Assembly (NCBI GenBank): GCA_947473125.1
Contig: CANJDH010000048.1
Span: 1 to 35,112, forward strand
Length of the DNA: 35,112 nucleotides
Source: Burkholderiales bacterium
GTDB lineage: Bacteria; Pseudomonadota; Gammaproteobacteria; Burkholderiales; JAEUOS01
Direction: 5' to 3'
Part shown: positions 24,250 to 35,112 of the stretch, piece by piece
How the letters are laid out: each line of letters opens with the position of its first letter
Position numbering within the stretch: the stretch's first letter is position 1
Position numbers and translations under genes: made by a program
Notes under the pieces: generated by a model
Seen by the model: the letters and a program-made list of their open reading frames with translations, nothing else
What the model was told of the DNA's origin: nothing
The model's database searches: none

Positions 24250-24543
24250 ATGAGTTCAGTCACTATTGAACACGTCAATATCGCCGACCTGCCAGAGCTG
24301 TGGCGCGCAAAGCTGCCCTCACTGCAAACCGAGCGCGTAACGGTGCGCATCGATACCGAAGAGCCTGAAACTGCGGCAGTTGCGCCTGCCACGTCTAATG
24401 CCGCAGGTGACACCACGTTCGCATCAAGTGATCCGGCCTTCGGGATCTGGCGTGACCGCGAAGACATGGCTGACGTGGAAGCCTACCTGAGCAAGCTGCG
24501 CGCACCGCGCTACAACCGCGATGGCTCACGCAACCAAGGTTGA
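24250..24543 (+). CDS. Antitoxin of VapBC-type pair
   Basis: A 97-residue antitoxin-like protein encoded directly before a PIN-domain toxin. It starts MSSVTIEHVNIADLPELWRA, has an Ala/Thr-rich linker and ends in an acidic-to-basic segment, DPAFGIWRDREDMADVEAYL, then KLRAPRY. That segment is characteristic of antitoxins paired with VapC toxins and is the likely toxin-wrapping region. The ATG at 24250 has a strong GGAGG upstream. A GATAAT (24194-24199) may be its -10, with a weak -35. Its stop overlaps the toxin start by 4 nt. Unlike the toxin-first modules here, it has a normal leader. Confidence 0.82.
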   Translation: MSSVTIEHVNIADLPELWRAKLPSLQTERVTVRIDTEEPETAAVAPATSNAAGDTTFASSDPAFGIWRDREDMADVEAYLSKLRAPRYNRDGSRNQG

Positions 24544-24944
24544 GCCGGGTGCTGGTAGATAGTGATGTGTTGATCTGGCATTTGCGTGGTTTGGCACGCG
24601 CCACGCAACGCCTTGATCAATTGCCACACCTGACGATTTCCGCCATCACCTGGCTCGAATTGTTGCAAGGGATGCGCAGTCGTGCCGAATTGGAGGCCGT
24701 ACAAAAAAGCTTGACCATGCGCAAGACCGAACGGTTGCCTGTTACCCCGGCAATCACACTACGCGCCACTGCGCTGATGGAAAGTTTGACGCTCTCGCAC
24801 GGCCTTGGCATGGGCGACGCCCTTATCGCTGCAACTGCGCTCGAACATGACTTGCCGTTGCTCACCGCGAATTTCAAACATTTCATTCCGGTAGAAGGGC
24901 TTTCTGTCGAACGCTTCGATCCGACACAGAACGCGCAGGTGTGA
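24540..24944 (+). CDS. vapC: VapC family PIN-domain ribonuclease toxin
   Basis: A 134-residue PIN-domain toxin, a Mg-dependent endoribonuclease typically acting on tRNA or rRNA. The acidic centre is complete: D7 (and D9) in VLVDSDVLIW, E40 in TWLELLQG and D93 in GMGDALIAATALEH, followed by LLTANFKHF. The length is normal. The start is TTG at 24540, overlapping the antitoxin stop; a GTG at 24549 is a shorter alternative that still keeps the first aspartate. It is convergent with the broken vapBC that ends 9 bp downstream on the other strand. Confidence 0.9.
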   Translation: MSRVLVDSDVLIWHLRGLARATQRLDQLPHLTISAITWLELLQGMRSRAELEAVQKSLTMRKTERLPVTPAITLRATALMESLTLSHGLGMGDALIAATALEHDLPLLTANFKHFIPVEGLSVERFDPTQNAQV

Positions 24945-24952
24945 CCCATTTT

Positions 24953-25166
24953 CTACCAGTCGACGCGCGAGACCCCTTCGACAAAGTCAAAATGCGCGTC
25001 CCGGCTCAAAACGGAAAGGCGATGCTCCAGCGCGAGCGCCGCAATCCACGCATCGTTAGCTGGGATCGGTTTGCCGGCGGCCTTGAGCGCAACCCGCAGC
25101 GCCGCGTAAGTAGTGGTGGTTGTCGGCATCGACGAAAGCCGACAGCTCACTGGCCTCGAGAATCAC
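24953..25166 (-). pseudogene. Internally deleted VapC toxin remnant
   Basis: On the minus strand, the C-terminal frame (to 24953) reads YAALRVALKAAGKPIPANDAW and continues IAALALEHRLSVLSRDAHFDFV, the second half of a PIN domain with its ND and RD motifs. In another frame, a GTG at 25166 starts VILEASELSAFVDADNHH, which resembles a PIN N-terminus with Glu in place of the first Asp. The two parts join near 25105 with a frame change, and the middle (about 60 residues, including the conserved Glu region) is absent. The C-terminal identity is firm; the N-terminal part is less certain. A small VapB-like frame lies just upstream. Confidence 0.68.
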
Positions 25167-25174
25167 GCACGGTC

Positions 25175-25312
25175 CTAGGGCTCAATGACGTCGAGAGTTT
25201 CATCAATGCGCGCTTGCACGCGCTCGGTTTCGCGGCGCAATTCTGAAAGCGTGCCAAAGCCCTGCATCCAGTCCGGCTCCGCATCGCTGGCTGCTACAGG
25301 TACTGACTCCAT
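25175..25312 (-). CDS. Small VapB-like antitoxin fragment
   Basis: A 45-codon open frame from the ATG at 25312 to a TAG at 25175-25177. It reads MESVPVAASDAEPDWMQGFG and continues TLSELRRETERVQARIDETLDVIEP. This matches the C-terminal toxin-binding tail of VapB antitoxins (WMxGFG...L..ET.R.Q..ID...IEP) but lacks the N-terminal DNA-binding domain. The ATG directly follows the higA stop codon (TGA-ATG). It lies 8 bp upstream of the broken vapC, in the order expected for vapBC. It is likely a leftover, although translation by re-initiation after higA is possible. The segment near 25260-25300 resembles the end of the orphan vapB at 25981. Confidence 0.6.
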   Translation of the reverse strand: MESVPVAASDAEPDWMQGFGTLSELRRETERVQARIDETLDVIEP

Positions 25313-25630
25313 TCAGGCGACTTCTGCGATTCGCGAAATCTTGGCGCGCCGCACCTTGGGTGCACCGGCCTTGCGGGCTTTCCACAAATCGTAGGCAGCC
25401 TGCTGCCCCAGCCAGGTGTCCGCCCTGCCGCCATTGGCGACCCCGAGCCAACCCTCGATGCGCAGCGCCATTTCCGGCGAAATGGCGGCGCGGCCATTGA
25501 GCACGCGCGACAACGCGGGGCGGGTGACGCACAGCGCCTCCGCGGCTTCGGTCACGGATAGGCCGAGAGCCGGCAACACGTCTTCACGCAGTGTGTGGCC
25601 CGGATGCGGGGGGTTGTGCATTTGCGTCAT
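25313..25630 (-). CDS. higA: HigA family antitoxin (XRE-type HTH)
   Basis: A 105-residue antitoxin with an XRE helix-turn-helix. [20 protein letters not shown] opens the domain; [35 protein letters not shown] is the typical HigA/VapI HTH. The C-terminal part, [18 protein letters not shown], follows. The ATG at 25630 has AGGAG 8 nt upstream (in ACTAGGAGCACGAACC), so unlike higB it has a standard ribosome binding site. It begins 11 bp after the higB stop. It should neutralise HigB and repress the operon by binding the promoter upstream of higB. Confidence 0.94.
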
Positions 25631-25641
25631 GGTTCGTGCTC

Positions 25642-25920
25642 CTAGTGATAGTCCTGATAGTCGACCAGCACGGCATCCTGTCCCTCGAAAGTGAATGTCA
25701 GGCGCCAATTGCCGTTGACCCACACCGAGAAATGCCCTTCATGGTCGCCACCCAGTGAGTGCAGGCGCCAGCCGGGCACATTCATGTCTTCTGATGACTT
25801 GGCCAGGTCCAGCCGGATCAACTGCCGGCTCAACTTTTCAGCATGATGGGGCTGAATCCCGGCTTTGCTGCCACGCCTGAAAAAGCCCTCGATGCCTTTG
25901 TGTCGGAACGACTTGATCAT
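25642..25920 (-). CDS. higB: HigB family toxin (RelE/ParE superfamily)
   Basis: A 92-residue ribosome-dependent mRNA interferase. The family sequence is clear: [31 protein letters not shown], then [42 protein letters not shown], ending in VLVDYQDYH. The active-site histidines and the basic NWRLTF strand are present, and the length is normal. It is the first gene of the pair. A near-consensus promoter ends 6 nt before its ATG and there is no Shine-Dalgarno box, so a leaderless toxin message is predicted. Confidence 0.94.
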
Positions 25921-25955
25921 TGGCGTAGTGTATAGCGTAGCGTTACGAATGTCAA
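25921..25955 (-). promoter_or_regulatory. higBA promoter
   Basis: On the minus strand, TTGACA (25955-25950, a perfect -35) and TACACT (25932-25927, -10) are separated by exactly 17 bp. Only 6 nt follow before the higB ATG at 25920. The spacer contains GTAACGCTAC, a short GTA-N4-TAC palindrome that could be part of the HigA operator. Transcription should start at or within a base of the ATG. Confidence 0.82.
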
Positions 25956-25980
25956 AGACGTTCCCGGCAGGGGCGCTTTG

Positions 25981-26169
25981 TCAGCGGATCAAATCGCTTG
26001 GCTCATCAACGCCCCGCATCCACTCCGGCTCCGCGCCGGTGGCTGCCGCTGCCCCCAATTTCTGTTGCAGGGCTTCGGTAAACAGATCTTTGAGCGACTG
26101 CCCGTGTTCCGCCGCGAATGATTTGGCGCGGCGAAACAGCGGGTCAGGAATTTCTATCGTGGTCTTCAT
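25981..26169 (-). CDS. Orphan VapB/RHH-type antitoxin
   Basis: A 62-residue protein with an N-terminal ribbon-helix-helix domain: MKTTIEIPDPLFRRAKSFAA, then EHGQSLKDLFTEALQQKL, then AAAATGAEPEWMRGVDEPSDLIR. The RHH part is typical of VapB antitoxins, but the usual long toxin-binding tail after EPEWM-G is cut short. No toxin follows on its strand; the next gene is higB with its own promoter. The segment encoding TGAEPEWMRG is close in sequence to the one encoding SDAEPDWMQG in the fragment at 25175-25312. This raises the possibility that both are parts of one old vapB separated by higBA. Confidence 0.72.
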   Translation of the reverse strand: MKTTIEIPDPLFRRAKSFAAEHGQSLKDLFTEALQQKLGAAAATGAEPEWMRGVDEPSDLIR

Positions 26170-26230
26170 ACGCCCATGTTTCCATATTCATGGGGTCCCG
26201 GATGATGCCGGTGAGCGGTCTGGCCTATGG

Positions 26231-26293
26231 GGGGCAGGTTACGGGGTCGAACCCATCATTCCACGTTCGACCCCAACTGCCCTGACCTGCCCC
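26231..26293. repeat. Nested inverted repeat upstream of tumE
   Basis: An outer arm pair, GGGGCAGGT (26231-26239) and ACCTGCCCC (26285-26293), encloses an inner perfect 10-bp pair, GGGGTCGAAC (26243-26252) and GTTCGACCCC (26265-26274), with a 12-nt loop. The structure lies between orphan vapB and the tumE promoter, which diverge from it. It lacks a T-run, so it is not a standard terminator. Part of it (26243-26263) recurs after tumA. Confidence 0.75.
26243..26263 (+). repeat. 21-bp direct repeat, left copy (flanks tumE-tumA)
   Basis: This 21-mer begins GGGGTCGAACCCATC and ends ATTCCA. It matches the copy at 26992-27012 at 20 of 21 positions, the difference being A versus G at the sixteenth base. 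The two copies bracket the tumE-tumA module with a 749-bp period, like the boundaries of a mobile cassette. Confidence 0.8.
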
Positions 26294-26305
26294 TCATCAG
26301 GGTTT

Positions 26306-26351
26306 GTTGGAGTAGTTGACAACAATCTTGCATGTTGGTATTGTCTCCAAC
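26306..26351 (+). promoter_or_regulatory. tumE-tumA promoter with flanking inverted repeat
   Basis: The -35 box TTGACA (26316-26321) and the -10 box TATTGT (26339-26344) have a 17-bp spacer. The -10 ends 7 nt before the tumE ATG at 26352. The inverted arms GTTGGAG (26306-26312) and CTCCAAC (26345-26351) bracket the whole promoter exactly up to the start codon, a likely operator for the antitoxin. No Shine-Dalgarno box is present, so a leaderless message is predicted. Confidence 0.8.
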
Positions 26352-26648
26352 ATGAAAGCCGTTCAGCTTGTCCGCTCCCGCATCCCCTATGCTCAAGCGG
26401 CGTTTGCTGAATTGGTGCTGTGGGAATTACCCAAGCCAGTCGCGGGTTCGTCCCACCGTTTCAAGTACCGGCTTGCGTATGTAGTGGATGGAGTGTGCGT
26501 CGTTCGTTACGACAACGAGGCCGGCAAAGGTGACCACCGGCACTTCGGCAGCAAGGAAAGCATCTACCGCTTCAACACGCCGGATCAATTGATCGCCGAT
26601 TTTCAACGGGACATAACGAGGTGGAACAATGAAAACCGTAACCCTTGA
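26352..26648 (+). CDS. tumE: TumE family toxin (DUF6516)
   Basis: A 98-residue protein of the DUF6516/TumE toxin family. Family landmarks are the FAELVLWELPKPVAGSSHRFKYRLAYV block (conserved SxHxFKYRL core), CVVRYDNEAGKGDHRHFG and the C-terminal YRFNTPDQLIADFQRDITRW. The DNExGKGDHRH motif is the most diagnostic part. I chose the ATG at 26352 because MKAVQLVRSRI is a natural start and the -10 box lies just upstream. An earlier frame start at 26316 would fall on the -35 box itself. The gene overlaps tumA by 20 nt. TumE is known as the toxin of a toxin-first pair; its mechanism is less studied than HigB or VapC. Confidence 0.87.
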   Translation: MKAVQLVRSRIPYAQAAFAELVLWELPKPVAGSSHRFKYRLAYVVDGVCVVRYDNEAGKGDHRHFGSKESIYRFNTPDQLIADFQRDITRWNNENRNP

Positions 26649-26976
26649 GGTACGCGCACCCGCTGATTCAATGGGGGACTTCGTGCAAGCATGGAAGACC
26701 GGGAAGCCGCAGAAGGCTGCGCGCATCAGCTTTGCCACGCCGGAGCTGCTTTGGCAGGTGCTTACCGCCAAGCGGTGGGAATTGCTCAAAGCCCTTTGTG
26801 GAGCGGGTCCAGTCTCCATCCGCGAGGCGGCGCGCCGTGTAGGCCGTGACGTAAAGGCGGTTCACGGCGATGTGATGGCGCTGCTCAATGCCGGTGTTCT
26901 TGACCGTACAGAAGCAGGCAGCATCGAGTTTCCGTTCGAGGCCGTGAAGGTGGAGTTCCTGTTGCAGGCGGCGTAG
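26629..26976 (+). CDS. tumA: TumA-type antitoxin (HVO_A0114 family winged-helix protein)
   Basis: A 115-residue DNA-binding protein of the family paired with TumE toxins. The N-terminal part (KTVTLEVRAPADSMGDFVQAWKTGKPQ) is followed by RISFATPELLWQVLTAKRWELLKAL, then the winged-helix core GPVSIREAARRVGRDVKAVHGDVMALLNAGVLDR, and a C-terminal IEFPFEAVKVEFLL strand. It starts inside tumE with GAGGTGG upstream. It is expected to bind TumE and repress the promoter with the GTTGGAG/CTCCAAC arms. An attC-like structure follows its stop by about 15 bp. Confidence 0.87.
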   Translation: MKTVTLEVRAPADSMGDFVQAWKTGKPQKAARISFATPELLWQVLTAKRWELLKALCGAGPVSIREAARRVGRDVKAVHGDVMALLNAGVLDRTEAGSIEFPFEAVKVEFLLQAA

Positions 26977-32651: not shown

Positions 32652-34028
32652 ATGAGCAGTTGGGTATTCCTGGACCTCGAAACCACCGGCGCCTCGGCGC
32701 GCGGCGACCGCGTTACCGAAGTCGGCCTGATCCGCGTGGTAGACGGTGTCGAAGTCGACGAGTGGTCGCAACTGGTCAACCCGGGCACGTCGATCCCGCC
32801 GGAAATCGTGCGCCTGACCGGCATCAACAACGCGATGGTGGCGCGCGCCCCACGCTTTGCCGACATCGCGCCGCAACTGCTCGAGCGCATCGGCGACAGC
32901 GTCATGGTGGCACACAACGCGCGCTTTGACTTCGGCTTCCTCAAATCCGAGTACGCGCGCCTCGGCATCACGTTTTCAGCCAAGACCCTGTGCACGGTGC
33001 GCCTGTCGCGCGCGCTGTTTCCCGAGCAGCAGCGCCACAACCTCGACACCCTGATCGAACGCCACGGCCTGGCCGGCATCGACCGGCACCGTGCGCTTGG
33101 CGACACGCGCGCAATCTGCACGCTGTTCCACAAATGGCAATCCGACACCGATGCAGAAACCTTCGAGGCCGCGATCGACCGCCTGCTGCAGCGCCCGAGC
33201 CTGCCGGCCCATCTCGACCCGGATGTGCTGCGCGACCTGCCGGCGCGACCCGGCGTGTATCTGTTCTACGGCCTCAACCCGCTACCCCTCTACATCGGCA
33301 AGGCGGTCAACCTGAAGGACCGCATCGGCTCGCATTTCAGCAACGACTACCGCTCCGGTACCGACCTGCGCCTGTCGCAGGAACTGCGCCGCATCGAAGT
33401 TGAGGAGACCGCCGGCGAACTCGGCGCCCTGCTGCGCGAGGCGCAACTGGTCAAACAGATGATGCCGGCGCACAACATCAAGCTGCGCCGCAAGAACGCC
33501 TGGACCGCGATCCGCCTCAACGCCGAAACCGCACAGCCCGAGTACGTCAAGTCCGATGCCATCGTGCTCGACGAACTTGACAGCCATTACGGCCTGTTCG
33601 CTTCGCGCGCCGCGGCGCGCGCGTGGCTGCTGTCAATCGCCAGCGAAGCCCACCTGTGCGCCAAAGGACTCGGCCTGGAACGCGGCGCCGGGCCGTGTTT
33701 CGGCTACCAGATCAAGCAATGCCACGGCGCATGCATCGGGCTGGAGACGGCGGAACAACACCTGCAGCGCGTGCGTGAAGCGCTTGCGGTCAAGCAGTTG
33801 CGGCACTGGCCCTACGCGGGGCCGATCTCGATTGTCGAAAAGAGCGCAGACCTGCTGCGCGAGGACTGGCACGTGGTCGACCAGTGGTGCTATCTGGGAA
33901 CCGTGCAATCCGAGGCTGCCGCATGGGAACTGGCCCACGATGGCGAACGGCGCTTTGACCTCGATGCGTATCAACTGGTGTTGAAGCATCTGGATGCGGA
34001 ACCGGTGAGCCCGTTCCTGCACTACTGA
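32652..34028 (+). CDS. DnaQ-like 3'-5' exonuclease fused to GIY-YIG (UvrC/Cho-like) nuclease
   Basis: A 458-residue two-nuclease fusion. Residues 1 to about 165 form a DEDDh exonuclease: D8 and E10 in FLDLETTGA, HNARFDFGFL near 90, and HRALGDTRA near 145. Residues from about 198 form a GIY-YIG domain, with RPGVYLFYG and PLYIGKAVNLKDRIGSHF. The C-terminal part has GPCFGYQIKQCHGACIG, a cysteine motif like that of UvrC (RxxCxxPCxG). UvrC's Mg-dependent 5' nuclease and HhH domains are absent. Such fusions occur in several bacterial groups and probably act in DNA repair as a Cho-like 3' incision enzyme with an exonuclease. It starts 30 bp after DUF2848. Confidence 0.92.
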   Translation: MSSWVFLDLETTGASARGDRVTEVGLIRVVDGVEVDEWSQLVNPGTSIPPEIVRLTGINNAMVARAPRFADIAPQLLERIGDSVMVAHNARFDFGFLKSEYARLGITFSAKTLCTVRLSRALFPEQQRHNLDTLIERHGLAGIDRHRALGDTRAICTLFHKWQSDTDAETFEAAIDRLLQRPSLPAHLDPDVLRDLPARPGVYLFYGLNPLPLYIGKAVNLKDRIGSHFSNDYRSGTDLRLSQELRRIEVEETAGELGALLREAQLVKQMMPAHNIKLRRKNAWTAIRLNAETAQPEYVKSDAIVLDELDSHYGLFASRAAARAWLLSIASEAHLCAKGLGLERGAGPCFGYQIKQCHGACIGLETAEQHLQRVREALAVKQLRHWPYAGPISIVEKSADLLREDWHVVDQWCYLGTVQSEAAAWELAHDGERRFDLDAYQLVLKHLDAEPVSPFLHY

Positions 34029-34243
34029 GAGAGCGCTGCAGCACGCCTGACTTCCAGCCCCCCCACGGATACACGCTCGTTACGCAAATTGCACACATCT
34101 GCTACGTAAGCGCGACCATGTTTACACCGGACGGCTTGCGTTAGGCCCTAGTCTTGGCAAGGTTAATTAGCACTGATGGGTCGAGAGTTTGCGAAAGCGG
34201 TGACCGTCGTGCTCCATCTGTTTTTTGAAGGAGGAGAGGCTTT
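34029..34243. promoter_or_regulatory. Intergenic region upstream of the multicopper oxidase gene
   Basis: This 215-bp gap holds no credible gene. A strong ribosome binding site (GAAGGAGGAGAG) lies just before the ATG at 34244. I found no convincing sigma70 promoter. TTGGCAAGGTTAATTAGCA near 34153-34171 resembles a sigma54 site, but its GG-GC spacing is 12 rather than 10. Confidence 0.4.
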
Positions 34244-35112
34244 ATGGACAAGCAGCTGCAACGTCTGATCCAACAGACCATGGACACCCAGCGCGCACTC
34301 ACGCGCTCTGGCCTAAATCGTCGCAACCTGCTCAAGTTGGGCGTGCTGAGCGCGTCCACGGGCATGTTGTTGCCGATCAAGGGGCTGAGCATGCGCGCCG
34401 CTTATGCCGCCGCTGCCTGCCCGATTCCGGGCAAGGAAATCTTCAGCCCGAAAGTGAAGCCCTTCAAGGACCCGTTACAGCGGCTCTTTGAGATGAGTCC
34501 TCTGGCCGCCGGTATCGATGGCGTGAGTGGCGGGCGCCCCGGGCCGCGGCCTGTAGCTGGCAGCAAGGATTCGAAGCTGCGCGTACTGCAGGAGCATCCT
34601 GATCTTGCGCAGGCCACGCCTTATGCTGATCTGGCGCACCAGGCCTGGGTCGATCCGACCTCCAAGTTGTATGCGCCACCGCAGGAATTTTAGTAGCTGC
34701 GCGCGACCCAGCACCGGCATGTCTGGCACAGCGACATGCCCGCCGGTAGCGCGGGTCAGACGGCCTGGGGTTTTGCGCCACCGGGCTTTGATGTCAATGC
34801 CACGCCGCTGGGCGGCAATTCACCTTCGATCGCGCCTGGACCGGTGTTCCGCACGCGCTACGGCCGTTCGCATCTGGTGCGCATCCACAATGACCTGCCC
34901 GACGCGGGTGGCGTCGATCAGGTGAGCGCGCTTGGCTTTGCCACGCCGACGTTGAGCACGCACATGCACAACAGCCATTCGCCCTCGGAGAGTGACGGCG
35001 GCCCGCTTTATTACAACTACGCCGGCGGCTTCTGGGACTATCACTACCCCAACCTCTATGCCGGCATCAACCAGGGCTATGTCTCGCCCAAGGAAGGTGT
35101 GCGCGGCGACTA
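34244..35112 (+). pseudogene. Tat-exported multicopper oxidase-like gene interrupted by tandem in-frame TAG TAG; partial at window end
   Basis: Reading starts at the ATG at 34244 after GAAGGAGGAGAG. It gives a long n-region, then a Tat signal, NRRNLLKLGVLSASTGMLLP, and a cleavage region near AAYAAA. The frame reads to TAG TAG at 34691-34696. In the same frame beyond the stops the protein continues without error: LRATQHRHVWHSDMPAG, then FRTRYGRSHLVRIHNDLP, and a copper-binding-type STHMHNSHSPSESDGGP, followed by FWDYHYPNLYAG at the window end. The H-x-H and H-x-P pattern resembles CotA/bilirubin-oxidase-like multicopper oxidases. The two adjacent stops without frameshift may be a disabled gene, a sequencing error or amber read-through. 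Confidence 0.72.

Follow-up and report, generated by a model that had tools for sequence, protein, structure and literature searches.

The gene at the 3′ end of the window, by which we mean the whole 35,112-nucleotide stretch of DNA analysed here, is probably a recently nonsense-disrupted paralogue, one of two copies of a multicopper oxidase gene in this Burkholderiales genome. The two adjacent amber codons that interrupt it are real in the assembly and look ordinary in kind; the case does not look like a new form of translation control.

Results

Gene layout at the contig end

The window is the whole of contig C48 in a draft assembly of 4,877,126 bases and 209 contigs (97.15% complete), and the gene, which sits after an exonuclease/GIY-YIG gene (32652-34028), is cut at position 35112, where the contig ends. 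Direct reading of the sequence confirmed that codons 150 and 151 of the frame from the ATG at 34244 are both TAG (Table 1), and in translation the same frame runs on for 138 open codons, up to position 35110, with no further stop and no frameshift. The preliminary description had called this continuation family-like, which alignment with six homologues bears out, and it had noted an upstream Tat signal and a strong ribosome-binding site; both hold up, since AAGGAGGAG is a good match and the motif NRRNLLK, recognised by eye, fits what we take to be a predicted Tat signal. Because the homology continues in a single frame from the upstream part into the downstream part, the sequence is a single interrupted gene, not a pair of open reading frames that adjoin by chance. 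Promoter and terminator scans over 33900-35112 found neither element, and no tRNA genes lie within the window. Elsewhere in the window, a cluster of small genes (24250-26976) resembles toxin-antitoxin pairs.

Table 1 Features of the interrupted gene and of the small-gene cluster in the window
Feature	Position	Strand	Remarks
Antitoxin-like ORF	24250-24543		Before the PIN-domain gene
PIN-domain gene	24540-24944		PF01850
HigA/HigB-like pair	25313-25920	-	Recognised by eye only
HVO_A0114-domain gene	26629-26976		
Ribosome-binding site AAGGAGGAG	34228-34236	+	Read in sequence; good match, 7 bases before ATG 34244
Upstream part, 149 codons and first TAG; N-terminal extension with Tat-type signal	34244-34693	+	52.8-57.4% identity to six homologues
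Twin-arginine motif NRRNLLK, codons 25-31	34316-34336	+	From translation; RR kept in 6/6 aligned homologues
Tandem amber TAG TAG	34691-34696	+	Replaces Tyr/Phe-Glu of homologues
Downstream part, 138 open codons, ended by contig end	34697-35110	+	60.4-73.1% identity to six homologues
His-Met-His (HMH), still encoded; presumably the first ligand pair of the trinuclear copper site	34961-34969	+	Sequence and alignment

An intact paralogue and the identity of the family

A DNA search of the own genome with the window gene returned one other match, on contig C47, where an intact open frame encodes a paralogue of 672 amino acids (G000:C47:33371-35386). It is through this paralogue that the earlier label of a multicopper-oxidase-like gene is substantiated: the protein matches Pfam Cu-oxidase_2 (E = 7.6e-16) and Cu-oxidase_3 (E = 1.9e-4; 21.9 bits against a cut-off of 21), and its best match among solved structures is bilirubin oxidase (3.7e-42), with CotA at about 1e-23 and CueO further down. 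Against NCBIfam equivalogs it scores 112.6 of 525 for CueO and 80.6 of 950 for PhsA, and FtsP is also well below its cut-off. It carries the motifs HMH, HDH, HPIHPH and HCH. The window fragment by itself matches no Pfam or NCBIfam model and aligns with the family along its full length; by ancestry it belongs to the multicopper oxidase family, the label resting on the C47 paralogue. The window copy encodes HMH, presumably a copper-ligand motif as in known multicopper oxidases, and the other three copper-ligand motifs of the paralogue correspond to sequence past the contig end, all of it 3′ of the stops. A predicted structure of the intact family, built from a four-sequence alignment, was discarded at a mean pLDDT of 29.4.

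The two copies have different neighbour genes. In the region G000:C47:31323-35386 (L003:5324-9387), the C47 paralogue has TTG as its start codon and comes after a response-regulator-like gene (463 amino acids, recognised by eye), a 66% identical stretch of which is also present upstream of the L007 homologue.

The stops correspond to residues 160-161 of the C47 paralogue. Among the 60 matches listed, the best stretch of a solved multicopper oxidase begins at profile position 207 of the family at the earliest. HMH follows the stops in the window gene, and HDH, HPIHPH and HCH likewise follow the site in the paralogue. A 149-residue product would be exported but would lack the oxidase core and the copper site, and it would not be a small oxidase.

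Homologues have sense codons at the stop site

Scanning genome contigs gave 22 pattern matches and, from these, five relatives; identity was 57-64% for four of them and 35% for the fifth. In the genomes of the four nearer relatives there are seven matches to the C47 paralogue (five at 72-85% identity), all free of inner stops, and one of these genomes, G399, carries a second full-length copy (L073). Six intact homologues were aligned at the site: the C47 paralogue, L007, L008, L009, L010 and the second copy of G399. The codon alignment is free of gaps at the site and places Tyr (five of six) or Phe (L007) and then Glu (all six) opposite the two TAG codons. No intact homologue has a stop there, so the window copy has in-frame stops where 6/6 homologues have sense codons, as in a pseudogene; the same comparison, which the preliminary description had proposed as a check, speaks against read-through. 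The six and the window copy have in common the gene family, the N-terminal extension, the Tat-type start and the frame across the site, at 62-67% identity (0.609-0.667) over 281-285 common codons. The window copy differs in having in-frame gaps in the N-terminal extension together with TAG TAG, whereas the homologues are open over their full length.

When the window gene was searched as DNA against 60 relatives, nothing outside the own genome matched except two stretches of about 28-37 bases, and the gene is absent from the four other genomes of the same family. Among 399 genomes of the order we found 15 matches in 10 genomes besides the own, at 40-48% identity and without inner stops, most of them starting 3′ of the site and thus not informative about it. 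These searches found no closer relative with an intact version of the window copy, and we therefore infer the order of events. The L007 contig, from a metagenome-assembled genome, carries the title Bordetella parapertussis, a name that may be a mislabel. The parts of the literature returned by our search contained nothing on this gene.

A double stop without a frameshift

Two adjacent stops had been described as unusual for random decay, an argument that loses much of its force once the codons of the homologues are considered. When all changes of two neighbouring bases were enumerated in the homologue codon pairs at the site, a single such change produced exactly TAGTAG from the pairs of L009, L010 and the second copy of G399, and TAATAA or TAGTAA from those of C47 and L008; the Phe-Glu pair of L007 yielded no double stop in this way. 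Given that three of six pairs, all Tyr-Glu, stand one two-base change away from TAGTAG, a double stop without a frameshift is not mysterious. Both stops can have come from a single event, and two separate changes are also possible, the ancestral sequence of this copy being unseen. Since one two-base change at a Tyr-Glu pair is enough to create a tandem stop of this type, such a stop does not by itself point to regulation. The title of PMC6764699 reports that eubacteria show no evidence of selection for additional, fail-safe stops, which agrees with, and does not prove, a non-functional double stop.

Constraint before and after the stops

Where five intact homologues all have the same residue, the window copy has it too at 62/74 positions before the stops and 73/84 after them. 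In a leave-one-out comparison L010, the most diverged intact homologue, keeps 74/89 before and 84/98 after the site, and the other four keep 84/84 to 84/90 after it; the lower conservation of the window copy relative to these four could reflect constraint that had relaxed before the stops arose. For the part after the stops, pairwise dN/dS is 0.208-0.364 when the window copy is one of the pair and 0.086-0.299 between intact copies, ranges that overlap with the highest value on the window side and that are rough, since pairwise dS is mostly high (0.6-1.3). On the terminal branch of the window copy dN/dS is 0.133/0.595 after and 0.212/0.983 before the stops, and the terminal-branch ratios of the six intact homologues after the site run from about 0.02 (L007) to 0.28 (L010). 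Relaxed constraint after the stops is therefore not seen, the ratio of the window copy (about 0.22) being far from 1, the same as before them and within the intact range; as such it gives no indication of neutral decay. This is expected if the stops are recent, and it counts only against an old pseudogene.

The window copy has the longest branch in the protein tree (0.43; L010, 0.34), in which inner supports are weak (32-68). Taken together, these sequence comparisons point to a diverged paralogue that for the most part evolved while functional and shows no trace of prolonged neutral decay. The clean 138 codons bound such decay roughly at 23.5 neutral substitutions (5.7%) for an assumed 0.1 indels per substitution; the 95% bound since the stops is about 4-9% divergence at an assumed 0.05-0.15 indels per substitution and 26.4% without indels. 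With its downstream frame this clean, the gene has probably acquired its stops only recently.

TAG is an ordinary stop codon in this genome

Release factor RF1 is present (511.3 bits against a cut-off of 423.25). The search for a suppressor tRNA, another of the checks proposed earlier, went against read-through: none of 37 tRNAs (Rfam RF00005 matches read with ARAGORN, in an incomplete list that lacks tRNA-His and tRNA-Ile) has the CTA anticodon. The PylS profile gave three matches, all below the cut-off (best, 35.6 of 178.15 bits) and in the range of the weak matches in control genomes, 13/14 of which match the profile, one of them above the cut-off. A simple composition filter retained 28 coding-like ORFs in the window; seven end in TAG, including the window fragment, and a Pfam scan of six of these found nearly whole domains in five (DUF1330, CN_hydrolase, BPD_transp_1, NAD_binding_2 with NAD_binding_11, and TctC). 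On the basis of RF1, these five domain genes and the tRNA result, TAG is a working, ordinary stop in this genome. A changed genetic code was rejected, as RF1 is present and other genes end in TAG. RNA structure in the 120 bases from the first TAG is at chance level (z = -0.26; 79/200 shuffles fold as well).

Discussion

According to the explanation we favour, the contig end would carry the 5′ portion of a diverged second gene for a Tat-exported multicopper oxidase, put out of action not long ago by nonsense mutation. A Tyr-Glu pair at codons 150-151 would have become TAG TAG, perhaps in one event that altered two neighbouring bases and left the frame unshifted; ribosomes would then stop at codon 150 and release at most a 149-residue exported fragment lacking the copper site, and the intact C47 paralogue would still supply the enzyme. 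Within this explanation we infer that the stops are real in the cell and recent, that they arose in a single event and that function was lost.

The main rival, which we consider unlikely though worth weighing, is that the gene is intact and that the double TAG was introduced near the contig end by a local consensus error, a mixture of strains or misassembly. The stops lie about 420 bases from the end of a contig in a fragmented draft, and none of the 209 contigs was found to carry the 3′ part of the gene: a protein search of the own genome gives only C47 and the window, and the match of the window copy stops at residue 300 of 672. Identity to C47 is 88% over the last 100 bases of the contig, and exact common stretches of 19, 17 and 17 bases lie close to the end; repeat or strain confusion in the assembly is possible there. 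The otherwise clean frame and the constraint that persists after the stops also suit an error. On the other side, there is no homopolymer at the site, two codons are cleanly replaced without an indel, and the site lies outside even the longest exact run in common with C47 (19 bases). An insertion element as the cause of the contig end was rejected, the last bases still following the family coding sequence. As a broken paralogue or as an assembly error the case matters little: the genome carried two Tat-exported multicopper oxidase copies, one of which may be disused.

Functional readings of the tandem stop fare worse. That the gene is split into an exported 149-residue peptide and a downstream part re-initiated, for example, at the ATG at 34736 is very improbable; the ATG is there, and both parts look coding (pairwise dN/dS against five homologues of 0.16-0.33 upstream and 0.21-0.36 downstream), but no ribosome-binding site is visible by eye ahead of 34736, a protein starting there would have no signal sequence, the gene is unsplit in all six intact homologues and the 3′ part is unseen. 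We give next to no credence to regulated or constitutive read-through of the tandem amber, or to TAG as an amino acid codon (including pyrrolysine). In its favour is only a frame that stays open and constrained after the stops; against it stand the lack of a CTA tRNA among the 37 found, the presence of RF1, a PylS score below the cut-off, the five TAG-ended domain genes, an RNA fold at chance level and the sense codons of the homologues. Two consecutive stops also make read-through less, not more, likely. Just as hard to credit is a selected switch, in which the tandem amber would yield mostly a 149-residue exported peptide and, by rare read-through or re-initiation, the full oxidase, with the amber tRNA missing from the draft. 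Of the three options offered in the preliminary description, two fit, namely recent pseudogenisation and a local or assembly error; the third, regulated read-through, found no support in tRNAs, RF1, TAG use, RNA fold or homologues.

Read as a recently disrupted paralogue, the window gene resembles bacterial nonsense pseudogenes in having a premature stop in one of two copies and an otherwise intact frame, and it differs from them in having two adjacent stops rather than one and an unassembled 3′ end. With bilirubin oxidase, CotA, PhsA and CueO the likeness lies in the structure matches and copper motifs of the C47 paralogue; unlike these enzymes, the family of the window and C47 copies has about 200 residues ahead of the region that matches solved structures.
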